Source: Diaporthe sp. PMI_573 (Eukaryota > Ascomycota > Sordariomycetes > Diaporthales > Diaporthaceae). From it: a DNA stretch of 64,000 bases. Below the pieces are notes generated by a model. It ran no database searches. It saw only the letters and a program-made list of their open reading frames with translations, and was not told where the DNA came from. Within the stretch, counting starts at the first letter, position 1. The number at the start of each line of letters is the position of its first letter. Where the stretch lies: positions 372,001 through 436,000 of the forward strand of contig JAJTUP010000052.1 of assembly GCA_021399435.1 (NCBI GenBank), in the 5' to 3' direction. The position numbers were made by a program, and so were the translations under genes. Positions 3,205-64,000 of this stretch are shown here, piece by piece.

Positions 3205-4575
3205 CAAGGCTCCGAGCAACGCAACGCAACGCAATATAGCCCCCATATTGCGTTGCGTTGCCGTATTAGTAAGCAGAGGGCACATTGCGTTGCGTTGCGG
3301 CAATATATTGCGCAATATATTGCCTTCAAATTGCCTTCGTTGCCAATCTCATGACACATAATGACAGATGCCTTGGTGTATGTATCATTAGCCCGTGACA
3401 GCGTCTAGCCACCAACATAGAACAGAAGCCTTATAAATTGCATCATGCTTTACACTCATCTCCCTCTGAATCGTACTCCTCTGACGGCAATCCAAGCCAC
3501 GGGCGTGTCTTGTCGCCTCCGCCCTTGCCTTGCAATAGAGAGGAATCTGTGGCAGTGACCAGGCCTGACTGGTACCAAGACCGGAGGACCTGGCACATAC
3601 TAACCATTACGGCATCAAGAGATAACCTCTGCTGGGTCATCATCCTTCCTGCTGACGAGAACAGCCTCTCGCACTCAGCGCTCATCGGCTGAATAGTCAG
3701 AAAATCAAACGCCATCTGGGCCAAACGAGGGTATTTAAAACGACGCTGGAACCAGTACGCAAAAGGATCTTCGCAGTCAAAGTGGTCAGATTTATCCGCG
3801 CACCAACCCTCATACTCATCCCCCTGAATCCTCTCCGCTTGGGCAATCAGCTGGCCTTCGAGTCGTCGACGCTTCCTGGCCTCCCTGTCGAATGGGTCAA
3901 CAAACCGCCGTTTTTGCGTAGGAAGTAGCAGGTCTGTTGTATTGAATGTAGACTCTACCTCCTTGGTAGAATAGTCCGCCTGCCAGACCTCTCTGACTAT
4001 CCCCTTGGCCTTCTAAACCCAATCAGGCCGGTCTGCCCATTGTTCTTCAAAATACTCCCAGCTGTAGCCAGGATGTAGGGTAAGGGCTGTATAGTAGATA
4101 GGCGTCTCGTCCAGCAGTTGATAGTAGTGGTCCATCTTTGCCGGGTTTTCGAGTGTGGTAGGTCCTTCTCCTCAAGCACGGGGCTGTTATACGGCTGTTG
4201 ACGGCGCCAACGAGTATCATTCACGATATTGAATGACAGATTCGAGCAGACAAGCCAGTCAAGTATCAATAAGTCGTCCACCGGCTTCTTGAAGCGTATT
4301 ATTAACTGCCCGTGGACTGCTTGTTGCGCCGGTTTCGAAAAGTCGATCATGGAGTTGAGGGTCCTCTGCGAGGGTGCAGGCGTAGACTCGGCTTCATTAA
4401 TCTGCACAGCATTCTAGGCGTCAGCTTATGAACCCTCATCTATTTTGTCACATACCTTAGGGTCTATAACGCCATGGCTGTCCTTTAGATGATTCTCGAT
4501 GGACCTGCTAGTTGTAGCCACGAATTTGGTATCCTTCTCAGGTTTCTTTGCAAGAAAACAAGACTCGCACCTCTG
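3205..4575 (-). mobile_element. hAT transposon, 5'-truncated, frameshifted
   Basis: Reading the minus strand gives, in order, a BED-like zinc finger remnant (about 4455-4560, ending IENHLKDSHG), the core motif VNDTRW (about 4205-4225), and the central ETPIYYTAL-like region (about 4085-4120). The C-terminal dimerisation domain follows at 3443-3724 (FLTIQPMSAECERLFSSAGR and QVLRSW). Several frameshifts and a missing catalytic middle make it non-functional. The 3' end starts at CAAGGCTCC (3205) and carries inverted GCAACGCAACGC/GCGTTGCGTTGC repeats. The same 3' end recurs at 59959-60398. The 5' end stops abruptly at ankyrin-coding sequence near 4564. Confidence 0.85.
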
Positions 4576-23739: not shown

Positions 23740-25428
23740 TTGCAATACCTGACGAAGGCACAAATTGAAAGACGCTTGCGTCAAGGGGTGAAGTTGAAAA
23801 GAAACAACCTCCCCGAACCGCCAAGATGGCACAATGACCTGGATAATCATCCCCTTGGACCAATATTCAGACAAGCAGAAGCTGACCATTTGCAGAGTCA
23901 CATTGAAATGAAGTCATGGACCGAAATCCTCAAGAAAGACCGCCGCGCAGCAGGAAAACAAATCCTGGACTGCATGTGGGTGTATGTCTACAAATTCAAC
24001 AAGCATGGCGTTCTTCAGAAATGCAAAGCAAGACTCGTGGTCCGCGGAGATCAACAAGCGCGAGGACAAACACAAGAAACCTACGCAGCAACTCTCGCGG
24101 GACGGTCATTCCGAACACTGATCGCCATTGCCAACAAATTTGATCTCGAGCTGATCCAATACGACGTTGTCAATGCGTTCGTGCACGCTCCTATCGATCA
24201 AGATATCTTCATGAGAATGCCTCGAGGATACGAGAAGAAGGGCACAATCTTGATGCTGAACAAAGCACTCTATGGGCTGCGGATTTCACCACTGCTCTGG
24301 CAAAAGGAATTCACAAAGACACTTGCCCAATGTGGATACAAACAAGTCCCACAAGAACCCTGCTGCTACACCAAGAACGGCATCCTGGTCTTCTTCTACG
24401 TAGACGATATTATCGTTGCGTATAGAAAGAACCGACAAGATCAAGTCGATGAACTGGCCCACCAGCTCCAAGAGAAGTATAAAATCAGTGGAGGGGACCC
24501 GATTCAATGGTTCCTGGGCATGGAGATCCTCAGAGATCGTCCAAACAGACGGATCTGGCTGGTTCAGACCGCATACATTGAGAAGATTGCCAAACTGGCT
24601 AACAAGAAAAATCTCTCCCACACAGTCCCCATGACAGCCGAAGAGCTGATGCCTCGAATCGACGCCGCCACAGAAGCTGAAGTCCAGACCTACCAACGAA
24701 AGATCGGATCACTTCTATTCGCTGCCATTTCCACTCGACCAGACATTGCATTCGCTACATCAAGACTTGCAAGATTCCTAACCAATCCGAGCCGAAAACA
24801 CCAAGATGCTGCCGACCGCGTGCTACTCTACCTCGAACGCACCAAACACCTTGCTCTTTGCTTCAAGGACACCGAAGAGTTGGTTGTCGCAAGCGATGCT
24901 TCATTCGCAGACAACACACTCGATCGGAAAAGTTCCCAGGCATTCGCAATGAAACTGTTTGGAGGCCTAATTGGATGGAGAGCAAACAAGCAAGACACGG
25001 TCACTACATCAACAACGGAGGCAGAGCTTCTGGCTCTTGCTCAAGCAGCAAAAGAAACACTATTTGTGAGCCGGCTCCTCACAGAACTTTCAGTGGACCT
25101 GGACAACAAGCAAATCAAGATCGAATGTGACAACACACAAACAATCAAACTGGTCAACTCAGAAGTCACAACACTCAAGACCAAATTACGACATGTGGAC
25201 ATACACAATCACTGGCTGCGGCAGGAAACTCAACGAGGAACAATCCAGGTGGAATAGACACCTTCAGCAGAAATGATGGCAGATGGGTTGACAAAGGCAT
25301 TACCGGCTGGAAAGTGGAAAGGATTCCTCCACCAGTTGGGCCTAAAAGATGTGAAAACAAGACATGGAGAGACAACCCTACGGGAAGACCCCATAAATAA
25401 CAGACTGAAAGCAGTTGAAGGGGAGTAA
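23740..25428 (+). pseudogene. Ty1/copia Pol fragment: RT and RNase H
   Basis: The frame encodes the C-terminal half of a copia polyprotein. The reverse transcriptase shows the WVYVYKFNKHG start, DVVNAFVHAPIDQDIFMRMP, LNKALYGLRISPLLW and the catalytic YVDD box (FFYVDDIIVAY). RNase H shows VASDASFADN, RKSSQAFAM and TSTTEAELLAL. A TAG at 25255-25257 interrupts an otherwise intact frame. The same frame continues through SAEMMADGLTKALPAGKW to a normal stop at 25426-25428. Gag, protease and integrase are absent, so the element is 5'-truncated. The stop is the only visible lesion in the surviving part, which suggests fairly recent activity. Confidence 0.9.
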
Positions 25429-25465
25429 AACGCAGACTCCCAGTGCCTGCGAGTCTGAGGGGGTG

Positions 25466-25659
25466 TGTCAGATGTGACGGGTTCTTTGGGTTAGGTGCCT
25501 GAGGCATCAATGGTTGAATCATGACAAAACCAGCCCCCTTACGGGTGGGGTCCCACCAAGGAACCAAGACAAGACATCATCACAATACACACAGTTACCA
25601 CCCCATCATTTGGACCATAATTACACGTCCCACATACCTAAAAGGGTGATAATCTGACA
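25466..25659 (+). repeat. Copia 3' LTR
   Basis: A 194-bp segment begins TGTCAGAT and ends ATCTGACA, a perfect 8-bp inverted terminal repeat of the TG..CA type. A purine-rich tract (GAGTCTGAGGGGG, 25451-25463) lies immediately upstream, as expected for the plus-strand primer site. It begins 38 bp after the Pol stop. No second copy was seen upstream, consistent with 5' truncation. Confidence 0.75.
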
Positions 25660-25918
25660 AATCCGTTTAATAATACTAAACCAAAATAAATTTATAAGAA
25701 TGCCTTATAGATGCAAGAAGATGTAAATAATCCTGACTGCTAAATAACCCTAGTCTTATCCATAAGACGCCTTTTGTGTTCCAGAACCGGTTTCCAAACC
25801 ATCGCTCACTCGGCCTAAGCCTCGAACAGGAAAATTGAAGGATACATACGGAAAAGCCAACTCCCGAAATCTTAAAATAACTATACGATTGCGTTCTTTT
25901 CATCTCCACTCAGTTTAT

Positions 25919-50465: not shown

Positions 50466-51350
50466 TTACCATAAGGAGGTGAGTGAGCGTGCGTAAGAGC
50501 TCCCGAGAAGCTTCGGGCAATGTCTCTTAAAGAAAGGCTTGGCGAATATCAGACAGACGCAGACCAGCCCAATATGCACCTCAAGCAACCTAAGAGCTAT
50601 ACGTCAGAGATTAAAGGTTCAGCATCCCGAACGCAAACGACTGACATACATCACAATAAGTAGCGGAGTCCATTCCCAGGTAAAGTCTAGTCTGTCGAGG
50701 TTGTCCATAGTCATTTTCGCCCTGGCGATGCTGACGGCGAGGACCCTATTCGCAAGATTAGTTCTAGTATTCTTCCTCGCGCTGCGACAGTTCAACTCAC
50801 AGGCCGCCGGTCATCATTATTCCCATCAATCCGATCTTCTGCCGGACTGGGAGACGTAAATTCCAAAGTATCCCAATAGGAAGACACAAAATAGCTGTGT
50901 CAGTAACAACGTTCATCACACCATTGAACAACATGATCTTTATAAAATTTATGCAAGTCCCGTCAGTAATGGTGAAATCCCAGTATTTCTCCATGGGACG
51001 GCAAGCGAAAACCCATTCGAAGGAAGTGAGGGTGCCGTAAAGAAAAACGACAACCGCAAGGGAATAGATGGCAACCCTTTGACGCTTGGCGACAGGCCCC
51101 AAGGCAATGTTTAGGTAGAAGGCCAAGATTGAGAGCTTGGAAAAGGTGACAGACATTCCAAAGAACGTCCCTACAATCGCGCCAGTCTATCAAGTCACTA
51201 ATGTTTAGTAAGCGCTGCAGACATTGGAGGCCACGATGGTCTGGTTGGCTCCGTAAGATCGGAAGTCGTTGCTCATCTTGAACATAGGAACTTTTGTATG
51301 ACCAGACGGGCAAGGGGAAAGGGATTGAGATAAGAGGTGCAAATTATACA
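50466..51350 (-). pseudogene. Fungal rhodopsin-domain membrane protein, 5'-truncated
   Basis: Spliced on the minus strand this gives the C-terminal half of a fungal rhodopsin-domain integral membrane protein. The first visible exon (51350 to about 51220) ends TIVASN. A very short putative intron leads to GAIVGTFFGMSVTFSKLSIL and FACRPMEKYWDFTITDGTC. Then come intron 50800-50746 (GTGAGT, ACTAAT), exon 50745-50650 (LVLAVSIARAKM..TWEWTPLLIV), intron 50649-50590 (GTATGT, CTGAC), and exon 50589-50466 (EVHIGLVCVCLIFAKPFF) to a TAA. The N-terminal helices are missing. The gene stops where a transposon terminus (51364) begins. The surviving exons keep good splice sites, so the truncation may be recent. 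Confidence 0.65.
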
Positions 51351-51363
51351 GAAATAGAAAATG

Positions 51364-51416
51364 AACGCGGATATTCGTACGGCCTAAATCGGATGCCACG
51401 CGGTTTTTCTGACTAA
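51364..51416 (+). repeat. Decayed terminal repeat of the 26.6-kb TIR family
   Basis: GAACGCGGATATTCGTACGG and the following bases up to TTTTTCTGACTAA match the 55-bp terminal repeat at 26590-26644 with several differences. No partner end lies within the next few kb. It abuts the truncated rhodopsin-domain gene. Confidence 0.7.
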
Positions 51417-51914
51417 TCGCATACAGCACCCTGTGCCCAAATTTATTCAAAAATGAGTCCCTCGAGCCAACCAACCACCTATAAACCCCAGTTCAGCTGA
51501 AGATCCAAGGCTGTGATAGGACCTCGCTGCAAACAACTTGGAAGCTCTGCGCCAATGAAACCGAGCAGCCTCTCCGCCATGAAACCCGTACTGCATAATT
51601 GGGGGTGTCATCGGGCTTGGCGCTGGTTTACGTGTAAACCGCCCGTGATTTACGCACCTCCGCACCTGGCCTTGGCGATATCACCCCACCCACCAGACCT
51701 TCGTTTACGAGGATGTCACGATAGTTTGGCCGTAGAAATAGAGTTTTAGTATCCACGAGCGAAGGTTTCATCGCCGCAAATAGCGTGTCTGGCCCTACGT
51801 GTCGAGATGTTATCGTCTTCCCCCACGTCGCGCGTCACGGCATGACTACCTGCTCCGGACCAGCTGGCCAACACCTCGAATAACGCCCGCCACAGGGCCC
51901 GTGAGCACTCCAAA
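51417..51914. other. Upstream region of the Crypton gene
   Basis: No gene is recognised. GGTTTACGTGTAAACC and CCGTGATTTACGC near 51626-51656 resemble, inverted, a segment near 56025-56050. Confidence 0.4.
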
Positions 51915-54564
51915 ATGGAGTTGAACGTAGATCCGAGGGTCGTGGAGTCGTACTATGCTTTTTTTGACCGGTATCTTGAAGACTTGCCGCGCAATACGAG
52001 GAATGCCTACAAGCCGAAGTGGGCCGAGTGGCAGGTATGACATTCAGCCTTGCGTGCCGCATAGCCCATTCCAATACCCCCAGATATATTATGACTTTTC
52101 TCTACGGGAGAATTTTCTCTGAGGCTAAAGCTTTGCAGGCATGGTGCGCCGGGCGCTTTGAACCTATCCCGAGCAACTGGGCCCAGTTGATGGATACCTG
52201 GCCGAGGAATCACATGCTTCCAGGGGACCTGGTGGATGACCAGAAGCTTTTTTGGTGGATCAAAGACTTCGTGATACCTCGGGCCCCATCAAAGGGAAAA
52301 CGGGTTAACGCGCAGACTGAGAGGCGGGAACAACGCAGGAAGGTAAAGCTGCATAAGGACGCGCTTACTGAGCTGACTGGCGAGGCCAGAGAAGATTCAT
52401 CCGAAGAGGACGACGCCGATGAAGCTCTGCGGCTACATCACAACTCCGTGAAAAGCTACATTTCGGCTATCGTGAAGATGCATGCCTTCCAGGAAGGCCG
52501 GAAGGTCAACCCTCGGCCGAATCCTCGCACTGAGCAGCTGCGAATGCTTCTGGATAGGCTCAAGACTGGCACATACGAGCAGAACCGAAGAGAATTCGCA
52601 GATCGGCTCGAGGAAACACTCTATGATGCTTATAGCCAGGAGGACATCCCTCGCCACACACGGGCGGCTTGGACTTGGCCCGATCGCCAGACCGTAGGGC
52701 AGGCGCTTCGGACTAACGTTGACTTCCTTCTCGGCACCCACACGGCCAAACGGCCGAGCGAGATCACCAATCTAGAGCTTCCTGACATCTTCTCGTTCAA
52801 GTTGCCCCAGCCGTACAAGTCACGGCAGAGGAAACGGGCCGTGGCGCGTGCGCTGGTCGCCGTGATGCGCCAGGGCAAGAAAAACCAAGAGGGCAAGATC
52901 GAAAAGGCCGGCGTTTTAAGGCACCGCGATCCTCACTCTTGCGCCATCGGCCAGCTGGCCTTCTGGTACTTCTGGCGGTTTGAGCACGAGAAAGAGCCGC
53001 TTCCAGACTTCTCAGACCGTCAATTGTGGTACCATACAAAGGTTCTGCGGCGAGATAAAAAGAATCCCATAGGTAGGTTATCATGTCGCATACTACCATA
53101 ACAGCCGGCTCCCGCCAAGCTTGTGTGCTAATCTTCAACCATAAATTGCCAGCGACCCTCGCAGACAATACTGCTCGGGATTGGGCCCAACGTTTGCTTA
53201 ATGCTAGTGGAATCAATATTACAAAACCCAGACACGGGCGACGTAAGGTGGCGGCGATGTTGGCTGAGTTGGCTCTGTGCCCCGAGCACGAGGTGAGTTA
53301 AATGCCGGCCCGCTGCGCCGAGCGTTGCACTTGCCTATACAAATTGGGTGGCGTGTGACAATCTGGGCCGCAGCATGACCCACCTTCCCCTTGTCCTTCC
53401 TTGGGATCTTAATTACTCACGCAATACTGGCCGTAGATTCGCCGGACCGGTCCCTGGGCAGGCGGCTCTGACTCCTTAATACAATCATACCTTACGGGGC
53501 TGACACCGCAGTTTATGAGGGCGCTGGCGGACTTTGAGCCCTCAGCCCCTGAGTTGTACGACATCCCTCGGGACAGGGTCAAGCCACCGCCGGAGCTGAC
53601 GAGCATGATTTGGCCCGAAATAGACCACTGGGCGTGGTCTCTGGCCAATGAGGGACACCCAGACGCCCTTAAGATTGACCGAGAGAGGGGGTCAGAGGCT
53701 GTGATCGAGACAATGATCTGGTTTCGAGAGATTCTTCTCCAGGATGCCGTATTCCTCCGCAAATCGTACCCCGACCACCCTATCTTCAACCACCCTGTGT
53801 TCAGAAGTCCGGCATTTGCAGTGTTTGCCTACCAAATAGAGGACGCGTGCGCACAGGAGCAAGGAAACGAGAATGCGTGGCTCCGGGCCGAGGAAACTAA
53901 CGAATTCCTCACACAAGCAGTCCGTGATCTTATTAGCCAACAAGCGTACCTTCTCAAGGAGGTCCAGCAGGGCAAGAAGATAAGCAGCGAAGGCTTCAAG
54001 TCGATAAGGGCGCATATAAGAGATCTCGCCAACCAGACTATCCACATTGCAGTCACACGTGGCGAGGGCGGCCCAGCAGCCACACATACAAATACTTGCC
54101 CCACGGCCAACTATCGGCCGCCGGGCGCTTTATCGCGCCCTACGGAAGCAAACGTTGGCACGAAACGAAAGCGAGACGACCACCAAGCAATAGTGGCGAC
54201 GGCGCGAGACGTGCCCGACCTGCCCGTGAAGAAACAAAAGACCGTGCTGAATGGTGGCACTTTAGTCGTGCCACAGCATGACCTTCCTGACAACCTCTCG
54301 TCGGTTGAGGACCTCCGGCGGGTCTGGCGCGAGGGGACGCCGTATATGCCTGCCGTTGCCGTCCTTGAGAAGCAGTATGGGGCTCGCTGGCGCCCTCCTG
54401 CGCGGCGTATGTACTTTTCTATCCGGAAGTCGATCATAGATGAGTTGCAGACCCGCGCAGAGACCCACGGCTGGGACGAGAAGGTCGCAGCAGCCGATAT
54501 GGACCGTGAGCGTGGAAAGCGGTCCCTGGCAAGCTATCACAAGTTTTTAAAGGGCACGAAATAG
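51915..54564 (+). CDS. Crypton tyrosine recombinase (CryptonF type), four exons
   Basis: Model: exon 1 51915-52034, intron 52035-52138 (GTATGA..TTTGCAG), exon 2 52139-53072, intron 53073-53152 (GTAGGT, GCTAAT branch, GCCAG), exon 3 53153-53292, intron 53293-53436 (GTGAGT..CCGTAG), exon 4 53437-54564. All phases fit and no stop remains: 773 residues. The tyrosine-recombinase residues are present in order: R245 (TAKRPSEITNLEL), K376 and H379..R382 (TKPRHGRRK), and the nucleophile Y416 (SLIQSYLTGL). The N-terminal part has the KWAEWQ/AWCAGRF core-binding region. The C-terminal end (VEDLRRVWREG..LEKQYGARWRPP) matches the GCR1_C DNA-binding domain of fungal Cryptons. Such elements move by site-specific recombination, without terminal inverted repeats. 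Element ends were not found. Confidence 0.85.
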
Positions 54565-55098
54565 TACTTCCAGGCATAGTTGTTGTTGTTTTCCTCTCGC
54601 CGGGCACATCGCCGGGGCACCGGCCACCGGAACGGCATGTTGGACAATGTATATAGTCCATAGGTTTCAATATTATCTAGGCGTTCTGACAAGCTGTTTC
54701 TTATATCGAACTGTTCGCCTTTTGACGACGATTCGAACGGTATAAGTGTTTTCTGCCCAAACGTAGTCCCCGTGGAGTTGCGGGGTGGTGAACCCTGGCA
54801 TGTAGCATAGCGCCGGGGAGGCGGCCGGAGGCAGCTCCTTGGAAGTGGTCCGGGATGTCCGTCCGCTATAACCACCCCTATGGTGGGTCTGACCAAGAGA
54901 ACCTTATATTATTGTAACGAGCTCGCCGAGGCGCGTCAAATGGTATAAGTTAAAACCACATAAACCGAATATTCATAGAGTTGGCGCTAAATGGCAGGTG
55001 GCCTGCCGCACTTGCCCTGCGCCGCCCGGCATGAGCTAACATCACCACTCCTTCCCTCCTGCAAAGCTTCCTTTTAAGCCAACACTTCAAGCCTTTAG
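54565..55098. other. 3' flank of the Crypton gene
   Basis: No gene. This probably contains the Crypton 3' untranslated region and its right end, which cannot be recognised by eye because Cryptons have no inverted repeats. Confidence 0.4.
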
Positions 55099-55173
55099 AC
55101 ATCCCAGTAGTACAATGGTTAGTACACTCACTAAAGTGATGAGAAACAGAGGTTTAATTTGTCTCTGGGGTGT
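55099..55173 (+). tRNA. tRNA-like sequence, degenerate (pseudo-tRNA or SINE head)
   Basis: The 75-nt segment has a 7-bp acceptor stem (ACATCCC with GGGGTGT, one G-T pair) and an A-box-like TAGTACAATGGTTAGTAC in the D-arm position. A B-box-like GGTTTAATTTG lies between AGAGG and TCTCT. The anticodon stem pairs poorly and the T-loop is two bases too long, so it is not a normal tRNA. C-to-T changes in the B-box would explain part of this. T-rich sequence follows, as in a tRNA-derived SINE. Confidence 0.3.
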
Positions 55174-56769
55174 CAAACATCTATGTCACGCCCTTTACCC
55201 CGGTGCTCAGGTTGGGGCATGGATGTTTTTTTTGCCTCCTTTTGCTTCTTCTAGCAGGGTGCCACTAAAGCTTCTTTTAGTGCGTCTTATAGCACTTTTG
55301 TTTCTCTACATTTTGATACTACATACAAGTATATGCCCCTAAAACTAAGCCCGTTAGCGTGGTGAGAAGTTGGGCGTGGTGGTGGTAATATATGGCGCTC
55401 CGGCATGACGATACCCGAGGCCGGCCGCTAGGGGTGCCCCAACTTTATCACGCCACAACACCACGGGAGATTTTTTTAAGCGGCCCGCGATAGAAGATAA
55501 CTATACAAAAAAAGCAGGAAATTTACGCCATGTTTGCCTTTTCCGCTTAATCGCACCGTACAGCATGGTAGGCGCCGTGGTACTGCCGTGCCGCAATACA
55601 GGCGGCCCAGGCGGGCGGCCGCATATCGCACTGCGCCACGGCGGGCGCTCTACCCGTAGCGCAGCAACCACGCAGAGATTCTGCTCCGCGATTTACGAGC
55701 GGGTACTCTCGAGGCCGCTCTTTCGAGCGGCACCGCTCACGATACCCTCAAAAATCGCTGGCTTGCGCTGGGGGGAGGATAATGGCGGGCGTGGTTGGCG
55801 GGCACTCACCGCCCGGCTAATGCACCCGAGGCGCCCGCCAGCCCTTACACCACGATAACTTCACGACGACGGCACTTGTGGGAAATCTGATTAGACAGGC
55901 TTGACCGCCCCGTCGACCTCTATCCGCCGTGTCGTTTGCACCCTCGCAGACAAACGGGGACGTGGTGCATCGTGGGTATTTACGAGACCTGGGCCCTGGC
56001 GCTGGTTTCGTAGATGTGAGGGTAAATGGCGGGGTAAATCACGCGTAAACCACCCAGACAGACCTGTTGACATATGCCGGTTATTGGAGGAGAGCGCTCT
56101 TGGATGACCAAGCCGCTCCTCCTTGCAAGTGGCTGATATATGACAAGCAAAGAGAAGAGTTCCGTTTGTTTTTACGTTAGCGATATAGTTTCTATGGAGG
56201 ATGCAATTCTGTACAAAGGGCAGCAAGTATTATATATTGAAGTAGAGCGTCCTGCGATTAGAGCGGTCCTCCTGCCGCTCGAAGGTCTCGAGCAGCCGTG
56301 ATAGGAGAAGTCCTCCACTTACAACCGAGGGTCTTGGCTGTGGCGTCCAAGGAGAGGAAGCGATAACCCCCTATTAATCTCGCAGCAAGAGCCCGGTGCT
56401 GCGCTGTCAGTCTCTCCACCATCATCTTGCCCTCTAGCCGTGGCAACATGGGAGCCCTAGGAACGTATTTGGTAGGCGGAATGCGAGGTAGGCGGTCGAC
56501 CTAAAAGAGAGGGGGGCCGGGACTTGCTGCCAATGACAGAAGTGCCGCGCCTTCTGTGCGACCCGGCCTGTGCTGCAGTTGTTCGATGCAGAGACGGGAG
56601 GAGATAGAGGAGATGAGTGGCCTGGCATAGACATGCGGGCTTTTGCGAGGCGCCGGGGATTGTTGCAAGTGTTTGCCCTCAAATATGGCCACAGGCAACA
56701 AGAAGGCAACCATGCCAAGTGGAGGAGGCAAGAAGCAATGAAGGCATTCTTTCATTTAAGTGTGCAGGT
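55174..56769. other. No recognisable gene
   Basis: GC-rich and AT-rich patches without convincing frames. The frame at 55565-55858 is open but has no domain. GGTAAATCACGCGTAAACC near 56032-56050 resembles, inverted, sequence upstream of the Crypton. Confidence 0.4.
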
Positions 56770-56857
56770 CCCCAATCTGTGCTGTCCTCAATCTGTGCTG
56801 TCCCCAATCTGTGCTGGCCACAATCTGTGCTGTCCCCAATCTCTGTCCCCAATCTGG
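56770..56857 (+). repeat. 16-bp minisatellite
   Basis: The unit CCCCAATCTGTGCTGT is repeated about five times with minor changes, the last units shortened. The copies adjoin without spacers. The array lies about 310 bp upstream of the F-box gene. Confidence 0.8.
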
Positions 56858-57167
56858 ATTCATGCAGCGCCAGCCATGACAGAGATCGGGTGGTACAGTT
56901 GACGAGCACGATGATGGCGCCATTAATACATCCACTCCCGCTCTGTTGCCTTGGCACGACCACAAATTGGCCTGGGCGCTGCTGAGGTAAGGTATGCTTG
57001 GCCCGTTTCACGTGCAAGATCATGTGATTAGTAGACACCCCACTCGGGCGTCCCCTGACTTTTTCTGCGTGTTGACTCATCACCAGTACACATTTCTGAA
57101 TTTCCACCGTCTGCATCGAATGGCCTGGGGTACCGGAACCGCGCTCCCGTAGACTCATCGATTCATC

Positions 57168-59958: not shown

Positions 59959-60398
59959 CAAGGCTCCGAGCAACGCAACGCAACGCAATATAGCCCCCAC
60001 GTTGCGTTGCGTTGCCGTATTAGTAAGCAGAGGGCACATTGCGTTGCGTTGCGGCAATATATTGCGCAACATATTGCCTTCAAATTGCCTTCGTTGCCAA
60101 TCTTATGACACATAATGACAGATGCCTTGATGTATGTATGATATGCCTGTGATAGCGTCTAGCCACCAACATAGTACAGAAGCCTCATAAATTGCATCAT
60201 GCTTTACACTCATCTCCCTCTGAATCGTACTCCTCTGACGGCGATCCAAGCCACGGGCGTGTCTTGTCGCCTCCGCCCTTGCCTTGCAATAGAGAGGAAT
60301 CTGTGGCAGTGACCAGGCCTGACTGGTACCAAGACCGGAGGACCTGGCACATACTAACCATTATGGCATCAAGAGATAACCTCTGCTGGGTCATCATC
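59959..60398 (-). mobile_element. hAT 3' end, near-duplicate of 3205-3651
   Basis: From CAAGGCTCC to TGGGTCATCATC this segment matches 3205-3651 with only about a dozen differences, mostly transitions. It contains the inverted GCAACGCAACGC repeats and the last 75 codons or so of the transposase (QRLSLDAIMVSMCQVLRSW). It breaks off in the dimerisation domain and continues into unrelated sequence. The two copies are about 56 kb apart in the same orientation. Confidence 0.9.
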
Positions 60399-61156: not shown

Positions 61157-62116
61157 ATAATCTTGATCCGTAGAAGACCCTATGCTGTCGAGCCGATGGC
61201 ATGCGTGGAACTTTTCCAGGTGTTCTTCCGCGGTTTGAAGGAGGGGAGCGATACATATGTGCATCTGCAGAGGTCTTACATTGGCGGGTTGAAGGCACAT
61301 GGTGCACCACTTCCTGGAAGTGGGAATGCGAACGGGACCAACATGTTCACAATATGGATTGCTTGGAGCGGGAAGAGGTGTGATACCATTGATTTACGGA
61401 GTCGGAAAGGTCGCGCACCCAACCACATGCAGCAGCAACAAGGCCGTGCGATGCCTCAAAGCCCTCTCACGCCTCGCTCCTGTCAACATCGCGCATAGCG
61501 GCGACAGACGTTAGCTCGACATCAACTTGATCTATTTAGAAGCTCAATACAAGATTTAAGCTGAGGTCTTGCAAGATCTCATTGCCCCATATCCTCACGA
61601 TAGCAGCGCCTGTTCTCCATGCTCAATACCCTGGGCCCCCTCCCCCTGACGACAAGATTTAAATTCTGAGGCGTGACATTGATCATAGTAATCGTGGGTT
61701 TAACATATCACTTGTATTTACTTATTTCGAAATAAGCTCTTAATTCTTCAACGCAAGCAACTAAGCTTAGATACACAATGTACATGGCCGGAATATGAGC
61801 AGCAAACTTGTATGGTTCATTCACGGTGAGCGAACGACTTCGGGAAGTCGGCATCACGGACGCGATAATTATTTATAGGCAAGATTGACATTACAGATAT
61901 CCGATTAACCTTTTGAAATCATACATACATCTTAGATACATGGACGTTAAATCGTAGTTGCATACCGTCAAAGCGTTAACATCGACTTCCCCTTCCAGGT
62001 CCAAGTCATTTTCCCCCGATACCTAAGAAATAATCATAGTGTCACAACAATCCCAAAGCGCTCCCGTTATTAGAGAATTCCAGAAGGGACAAACCAAAGG
62101 GGCTTGCACGTTTCAT
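61157..62116. other. No recognisable gene
   Basis: AT-rich from about 61500. This is the 3' flank of the DUF3659 gene on the minus strand. A short plus frame (61163-61498) is not supported. Confidence 0.4.
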
Positions 62117-64000
62117 TTATTTCTTCTTGTCCTTGCCGGTCAGGGCCTTGGTCAGGGAGCCGAGCCCAAGCCCGTCGAGCAGCCTGTTGAGGCCGAGCGT
62201 GCCCAGGAGGCCGTCGACGATGCCGCCGAGGCCGAGGCCGCTGAGCAGGCGACCCACGATGCCGAGCACACCCGTGAGCAGGAGGCCGACGGCGGCAATG
62301 ATCTGGAAGAGCGGCTCGCCCAGGAGGCCCCACAGGGGGTTGAGCTCCTTCTTTGCGTGGGGCATATCCTCCAGCTTGCGCTTGGCGCCGTCGATGGTCT
62401 CGGTGACGGTACCGGTGAGCTGTCAGTGTTGTTGAGTCAGTACATATGTCCCTAATCAAGATTGATTCTAGTGGTGAGGGATCGACTCTTACTTCCTTGA
62501 TAACCTCAGCAAGGTGGAACTCCTCGGGAGTGGCCTCGCGAGTGCCGGACTTGTGCTTAGCGTTGGCCTGGATGTGTCCGTCGGGGTCGATGCCGCGGAT
62601 GATACCGTGCGCCTCGCGGAGGATGTTGCTACCCTCCTCGATGAGGGGGCGGACCTCCCTGACGAGCGCCTCCTCGTCGCGCTCGTCCTCGGGCTTGCGC
62701 TCCATGGCCTCGATCTTAGTGGTGATCATCTTGCAGATGGGCTTGATCTTATCCAGGCATTGCTCGAGGCACATAGCCATCTGAGTCGCGAGCTTCTTGT
62801 CCTGCTCTCTCTGCAGGCGCTCTTCCTTCTCCTCCTCAGTCTCGCCAACCTCTTCCTCTTGGGGAATATCGGATAGCAAGTTGACGTGACCGACTGCCTG
62901 GCCCTTGCTGTTGATGACATCGCCGTCATCGTCAATCTCCAGGCCAGAACAGACAAGCGGGTCACCGCTTGTGAGCTTAGCGATTATGTTGCCGTTGGTA
63001 TCGACAACATTACCCTCTTGGTTGACGTGCAGACCAGCGAGGGCGCCCACCTTCTTCTCGACCTCCTCGGGCTCCCAGCGCTCGGCCTTGCCGATGACGT
63101 TGCCGTTGCTGTCGAGGATGTCGCCATCCTGGTCGACAGTACGGCCGGAAAGCTTCTTGGGATCACCCTCCACGAGACGGCCAACGATATCGCCACCTGG
63201 CGTGACGACGTGACCTTCTTTGTTGACGGTCAAGCCGCTGAGCTCGGCGAAGATGCCCTCTTTGGAACCCTCACGCTCACCCTCGGTGACAAGGTCCGCA
63301 TGTCCGATGACGTCGCCGGACTCGCTAAGAATCTCGCCGTTCTTGTTGCACATGCGACCGATCATCTTGGAAACATCACCATCGATGACACGGCCGAAAA
63401 TTACGCCAGCAGAGTCGACGACGTTACCGCTCTTGTTGACACGCTTGCCGGCAAGGATGGACTTGTCAACCTCAGCCTCGGGCGCGACCTCCTCTTCTTC
63501 CCAGCGCTCAGCCTTGCCGATGACATTGCCAGCCTTGTCTAAAATCTCACCATCAGGGTCGACGGTCTTGCCCTGGAGGACCTTGATGTCGCCCTCGATG
63601 ACCTGACCGACCTGCTGGCCCTCCCACATGACTTTACCCTTGCCGTCAATGGTGTTGCCCTCAAAGGACTCGAACGGCTTGGACTCCATGAGTTCTTGCA
63701 GCTCGTTGTCGGGGATAGGCTCGGCGCGGCCAATATCCTTGCCACTGTCGTTCCAGATGATGCCGTTCTCGTCAACCTTCCGGCCGATGAGGTGCGCCAT
63801 GATGCCCTGGGTGATGCGGCCGATGGCTTGGCCCTTCTCGTTGACGACGTTGCCCGTCTTATTGACCTTGGCGCCCTTGAGGATGGAGTAGTCGATCTCG
63901 GCTTCGGGCTGCACGGTAGCTGTCGGGTATCCGCTGGCGTAAGTGTATTCCGTCTGCTGGTCATCGGGAATCTGGGCCTCTGAGGCGGCCTGAGTACCCT
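62117..64000 (-). CDS. DUF3659-repeat ('LEA domain') protein, 5' partial
   Basis: The frame is open to the right edge of the window, so the start lies outside. Exon 64000-62493 encodes at least ten tandem units of the G..V+..G.VVD..G...G+...GD..+L pattern (e.g. KGKTVDPDG-like GKTVDPDGEILDKAGNVIGK), arranged as five double repeats. A Glu/Lys/Arg coiled coil follows, with RPLIEEGSNILREAHGIIRG. An intron (62492-62420, 73 nt: GTAAGA, ACTGAC branch, GACAG) leads to a last exon with LTGTVTETIDGAKRKLEDM and a glycine/leucine-rich hydrophobic tail (LFQIIAAVGLLLTGVLGIVG) ending KDKKK. Such proteins are widespread in Pezizomycotina and may bind membranes or protect cells in stress. That role is not established. 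The gene is intact as far as visible. Confidence 0.85.

Follow-up and report, generated by a model that had tools for sequence, protein, structure and literature searches.

Cryptons are among the least tested of the DNA transposons and their ends are hard to find; to our knowledge, no Crypton has yet been shown to move in the laboratory. The closest described group is CryptonF, whose members (PMC3212892) carry one gene with a tyrosine-recombinase domain plus GCR1_C, lack long terminal inverted or direct repeats and occur in few copies. All of these traits recur in an element within a 64,000-nucleotide stretch of the Diaporthe sp. PMI_573 genome (C166:372001-436000, C denoting contigs; hereafter the window), which was analysed together with the 83.7-Mb assembly of 217 contigs as the searched genome. 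The single gene identified in the element encodes a 773-aa protein, a tyrosine recombinase with a C-terminal GCR1_C domain. On the basis of its ends, an empty site, a second intact copy, purifying selection and a near-identical sibling elsewhere, positions 51605-56078 very probably represent a complete CryptonF-type DNA transposon with a 773-aa recombinase, the circle and core mechanism proposed below included. By the same sequence comparisons, the element is a member of CryptonF, recently mobile and with an intact gene; a literature search on Diaporthe and Crypton, at the level of search results, found no description of this family.

Ends and empty site of the element

A genome search with the two window flanks found both of them joined on contig C206 without the element. 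C206 matched window positions 51250-51604 at 95.2% and 56079-56768 at 90.9%, the two matches abutting with a 2-base overlap. The contiguous C206 flanks therefore set the element at 51605-56078, 4,474 bp, with GG on both sides:

51603-51604, no strand: left GG, which with 51605-51608 makes up the left core GGGTGT
51605-56078, forward strand: Crypton element, 4,474 bp, GTGTCATCGG...GACATATGCC; flanks contiguous on C206 without it
51624-51653, forward strand: left subterminal motifs, TGGTTTACG (51624-51632) and CGTGATTTAC (51644-51653)
56034-56052, forward strand: right subterminal motifs, GTAAATCACG (56034-56043) and CGTAAACCA (56044-56052), inverted relative to the left ones
56079-56080, no strand: right GG, which with 56081-56084 makes up the right core GGTTAT, identical to the empty site

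The left junction in the window reads CATAATTGG-GG-GTGTCATC and the right junction ACATATGCC-GG-TTATTGG; the empty site on C206 reads CATAATTGG-GG-TTATTGG. Homology to a paralogous copy on C157 spans 51613-56078. The gene (51915-54564) is only part of the element, which reaches beyond it on both sides. Adjoining the insertion site is a 119-aa piece of a fungal rhodopsin-domain protein (50797-51156, reverse strand; PF20684, E 8.9e-31).

No repeat of 14 nt or longer pairing the very ends of the element was found, nor any terminal inverted repeat; an inner direct repeat (17 nt at 88%) is present at 51613-51629 and 55992-56008. The left end is followed after 19 and 39 bases by the motifs TGGTTTACG and CGTGATTTAC, respectively, and their inverted copies precede the right end by 26 and 35 bases. 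In dinucleotide shuffles, the combined score of the window motifs was reached in 2/5000 and their longest match in 33/5000. The motifs were weaker in the C157 copy, where the longest match was reached in 127/5000 shuffles. These inverted motifs are candidate recombinase-binding arms. Rfam, searched over 51000-57000, returned a sub-threshold ZMP-ZTP match (29.3 bits against 39) and nothing else; this match was taken as chance.

The recombinase gene and its product

Read without splicing, the gene is broken near 53100 and 53300, as the initial annotation had stated (ORF stops at 53101 and 53301). Its further proposal, that three introns join the pieces into one frame, was reproduced exactly, exon by exon, and gave 773 codons plus a stop over 51915-54564:

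51915-52034, forward strand: exon 1, codons 1-40
52035-52138, forward strand: intron 1, GT..AG, 104 bp, common to the C157 copy
52139-53072, forward strand: exon 2, with R245 (52751-52753), E248 (52760-52762) and K287 (52877-52879)
53073-53152, forward strand: intron 2, GT..AG, 80 bp, common to the C157 copy
53153-53292, forward strand: exon 3, with K376 (53224-53226), H379 (53233-53235) and R382 (53242-53244)
53293-53436, forward strand: intron 3, GT..AG, 144 bp, common to the C157 copy
53437-54564, forward strand: exon 4 including the stop, with W405 (53455-53457) and Y416 (53488-53490)
52628-53817, forward strand: NDC10_II domain (tyrosine-recombinase type), residues 204-525, Pfam E 1.1e-46, spanning introns 2 and 3
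54283-54513, forward strand: GCR1_C DNA-binding domain, residues 681-757, Pfam E 4.3e-13

Introns are said to be known in Crypton genes from the work of Goodwin and colleagues in 2003. The C157 paralogue, aligned without regard to the gene model, has an open frame of 772 codons with the same three GT..AG introns. Between the window and C157 copies, exons 1-4 are 85, 82, 75 and 81% identical (the exon 2 value was recalculated, the printed 0.92 being inflated by columns gapped in both rows) and introns 1-3 are 78, 65 and 70% identical. Over 772 codon pairs, dN/dS was 0.243 overall, with 0.116 in GCR1_C, 0.173 in the YR part and the highest value, 0.384, in the linker (residues 526-680); the differences at codon positions 1, 2 and 3 numbered 125, 82 and 232. 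Homologous proteins aligned without gaps over junctions 1 and 2 (P0004) and over junction 3 (P0001). The open C157 frame, the codon-position bias, dN/dS and the gap-free homologues thus make the gene model more than a chance construction, and the three introns would be spliced out in the cell. Judged from the codon comparison, the recombinase coding sequence is under purifying selection along the lineages joining the window and C157 copies.

The product had been described as a tyrosine recombinase with a GCR1_C domain, and an HMM search had been suggested; the spliced protein matched both NDC10_II and GCR1_C in Pfam, each above the Pfam cut-off. An NCBIfam search gave only matches far below cut-off. 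CBF3 subunit A (Ndc10) was found in PDB at E 8.8e-9 with a profile of six relatives, via the stretch just after the Tyr, and a single-sequence search against solved structures reached only E 0.13. AlphaFold2, run on P0003 with 7 further hits, gave no confident fold (mean pLDDT 37, pTM 0.20).

The residues initially put forward as the catalytic set (R245, K376, H379, R382 and Y416) are all present at those positions of the 773-aa frame, and R245, H379, R382 and Y416 are plausible in that role. The assignment of K376 is less likely to hold. In tyrosine recombinases the catalytic Lys is found in the hairpin between strands beta2 and beta3, a long way before H-x-x-R; K376, unlike the hairpin Lys, sits 3 residues before His379. 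Since the family Lys lies well before H-x-x-R, K287, within an invariant QGK, is the better candidate, and the catalytic Lys is more likely K287 than K376. In a six-row alignment, R245, K287, H302, K376, H379 and R382 were invariant where rows cover them; the Tyr416 position is Phe in P0001, and P0004 diverges before the Tyr. The tyrosine-recombinase pattern includes R-x-x-E in box I and a His/Trp in box II: R245-P-S-E248 matches the former, and W405, 11 residues before Y416, is placed like the latter. The active site is likely composed of R245, K287, H379, R382, W405 and Y416.

Copies, relatives and alternative readings

Searched against the genome, 901 bases of exon 2 gave at least five matches at four places, and the whole protein gave at least 46 matches. 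The four related copies were as follows:

C157 copy: coding sequence intact with a 772-aa frame; a solo LTR in its 3' untranslated part
C158 copy: the C157 insertion and its surroundings in duplicate; carries a frameshift and is cut off by the end of the contig
C43 copy: exon 2 interrupted by a 1,179-bp insert; 3' end missing
C51 copy: 5' half lost; near-identical to the window copy

The C157, C158 and C43 copies are 98-99.9% identical among themselves and 76-82% identical to the window copy. An alignment of the C51 and window copies has 2,577 columns, 49 of them gapped, and shows 5 substitutions in the 2,528 aligned bases; the right flank of the C51 copy differs from that of the window copy starting at the element end, so the C51 copy occupies another site. 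This near-identity at a different site indicates that the window lineage moved recently, and the presence of near-identical copies in both groups (window and C51; C157, C158 and C43) points to recent mobility of both lineages; the C51 sibling, with its 5' half gone, cannot show movement of a full copy. Searches with the flanks of the C51 and C43 insertions found no empty site for either. Of the element, C189 retains a match only to the last 135 bases and C185 only to the last 102. An internally deleted relative with most of the gene gone is located at C1:1337481-1338301 (about 1945-2802 of locus L028, C1:1335500-1340500); it was rejected as a working non-autonomous derivative, being single-copy with degenerate ends. 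Beyond this genome, the protein P0005 (346 aa; JGI source, a 4,976-base contig) shares 81% identity with the window protein and by eye reads like exon 2 of the C157 copy, so other samples too contain close relatives.

Intactness is not confined to the window copy within this genome: the C157 coding sequence is intact as well, and long open frames also occur in a second CryptonF family. That it is the one self-mobile element in the window, as had been suggested, is plausible; among unspliced ORFs of at least 180 aa, 17 of the 20 in the window were scanned and transposon-type domains, all partial, were found in 3.

Other repeats and genes were noted along the way. A repeat of ~196 bp near the C157 copy was considered as a MITE and rejected: it begins TG, ends CA, has 5-bp duplications and adjoins an RVT_2 frame, as a Copia LTR does. 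The solo LTR noted above in the 3' untranslated part of the C157 copy is a copy of this LTR and has the 5-bp duplication CTTAC (L006, 2150-2346). A Copia element is represented by its 3' part at window positions 23740-25660, where a 505-aa frame contains RVT_2 only and the ~196-bp LTR is present; this part is 98.6% identical to a stretch beside the C157 Crypton. A 440-bp direct repeat is present at 3205-3644 and 59959-60398, 96.8% identical and 57 kb apart. At 62073-63914 (reverse strand) lies a conserved DUF3659/DUF6987 (LEA-like) host gene, whose product shows 99% identity to a Diaporthe sp. PMI_573 protein across 71% of its length and 91-92% identity to proteins of other named Diaporthe. 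ARAGORN found no tRNA genes in the window.

A pseudogene could have been made to look intact by the choice of introns, which were initially picked by eye; in intron 1, a simple pattern search found no CTRAY-type branch point. We consider this reading very improbable: in the C157 copy, too, these three introns yield an open frame, homologues align over all three junctions, and the differences show a third-position excess and a dN/dS of 0.243. A host gene domesticated from a Crypton might also have its protein under selection, which here is strongest in GCR1_C (dN/dS 0.116); PMC3212892 supplies yeast precedents, Gcr1 and Cbf2/Ndc10. However, the gene sits within a bounded 4,474-bp unit that is absent from the paralogous site, copies are dispersed and some of them broken, and the catalytic residues are kept, whereas the domesticated yeast genes are without them according to that source; domestication is highly unlikely here. 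Very improbable, too, is a small or decayed Starship with this recombinase as its captain. Captains are fungal tyrosine recombinases too, but Pfam gave no DUF3435 match at E up to 1, and the limits set by the empty site, 4,474 bp apart, leave no room for cargo.

A silent recent insertion, structurally intact but no longer expressed or mobile through methylation, silencing or an unseen end defect, is a serious possibility that falls somewhat short of being probable. Its only close sibling (C51) is truncated, and by the index thresholds in use for borderline and depleted calls the RIP indices are not clean, TpA/ApT being borderline at 0.91 and (CpA+TpG)/(ApC+GpT) not depleted at 1.13. Against this reading, frame, ends and junctions are intact; the purifying selection on the lineages to the C157 copy speaks of past function, not of present activity. 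We favour a complete, recently mobile CryptonF element at 51605-56078, which from its structure may still be active.

Core sequences and comparison with known systems

Two insertion sites were reconstructed, window/C206 and C157/Copia LTR. The C157 copy sits four bases inside a solo Copia LTR whose 5-bp TSD, ATACT, is intact outside. With the element in parentheses, the site reads ATACT-TGTC-AG-(GTGTAGGG ... TATATGCC)-AG-ATGTGACG...ATCTGACA-ATACT; the LTR without the element, at 23 other loci, reads TGTC-AGATGTGACGG. The 2-bp repeat flanking the element is AG for the C157 copy and GG for the window copy. Independent left cores (n = 3) were GGGTGT (window), AGGTGT (C157) and AGGTGT (C43), the C158 copy (L007) being left out as a duplicate of the C157 insertion (99.93% over 5,618 columns). 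Right cores (n = 5) were GGTTAT (window), AGATGT (C157), GGGTAT (C51), AGGTCT (C189) and AGATGT (C185); C43, whose right end is lost in a GGAT repeat, and the degenerate C1 relative were left out, and the C185 end was counted after one C-to-T change in TATGCC. The two cores of the window copy, GGGTGT and GGTTAT, share their first 2 bp and 4/6 positions overall, and those of the C157 copy, AGGTGT and AGATGT, share 5/6, so that each pair is an imperfect 6-bp repeat.

Compared with RGGTGT, the right ends matched at 24/30 positions. At positions 3-6 alone the match was 14/20 (binomial P 3e-5), and in the two reconstructed sites alone 5/8 (P 0.027), with equal base frequencies assumed and copies treated as independent. 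As the right-end match is above chance, the crossover region is probably a mismatch-tolerant core of 6 bp. In both reconstructed sites the core of the element is on the left and that of the target on the right. All three independent left ends and all five right ends read fit a scheme of loose homology, in which the joint core would be RGGTGT and targets RGnTnT with 1-2 mismatches, element core left and target core right; we propose this scheme tentatively, as possible rather than probable.

The ends of the second CryptonF family served as a control and were handled like those of the window family. Its copies at C166:124133-127225 (L071, L067, L072; also given as C166:124908) and on C183 (L073) are 99.77% identical over 3,093 columns, indicating that this family is young too, and a perfect 6-bp repeat, GCTTAT, was found at both ends of both copies compared. 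Both families have NDC10_II and GCR1_C, with proteins about 30% identical. Unlike the window gene, the second family, in the copy read, runs from YR to GCR1_C in an uninterrupted 661-aa frame without introns 2 and 3; stop-to-stop frames of 766 aa were found in no fewer than five places.

In the proposed mechanism, the recombinase would bind the inverted subterminal motifs and cut within the short core through Y416. The element would be excised as a circle whose joint carries RGGTGT, and the circle would insert at chromosomal sites that resemble this core (RGnTnT); after insertion, the left end would carry the core as it stands in the element, and the right end the core as it stands in the target. 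Were the loose-core reading true, it would imply a fixed direction of strand resolution, and the co-resident CryptonF families would offer a natural contrast between strict and relaxed recognition of the core within one recombinase type. Within a single genome there are a structurally intact copy with its exact ends and an empty site, a near-identical sibling elsewhere and a further intact paralogue, so that direct tests of excision, circle formation and core choice are within reach.

Among described systems, Corynascus sepedonium VTI28DRAFT_1802 (P0003, 760 aa), compared as a protein alone, has the same two domains and aligns over its full length (32% local identity); it differs in host and locus. 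MarCry-1_FO of Fusarium oxysporum also has a CryptonF-type protein, alongside which PMC3212892 describes a mariner transposase, TIRs of 16 bp and duplication of TA. In the window element we found no DDE match (spliced protein) and no terminal inverted repeat, and the bases flanking the element copies are GG or AG, not a TA. Starship captains are likewise fungal tyrosine recombinases, with a domain that PMC12134995 describes as very distantly related to that of Cryptons; they belong to the DUF3435 family and travel with large cargo, and the window element showed neither a DUF3435 match nor room for cargo. In most fungal CryptonF the terminal direct repeats are 6 bp long and perfect (PMC3212892), whereas in the window copy only 2 bp are identical (4/6 of the core). 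This loose junction, 2 identical bp within a 6-bp core, is the one unusual feature of the element.
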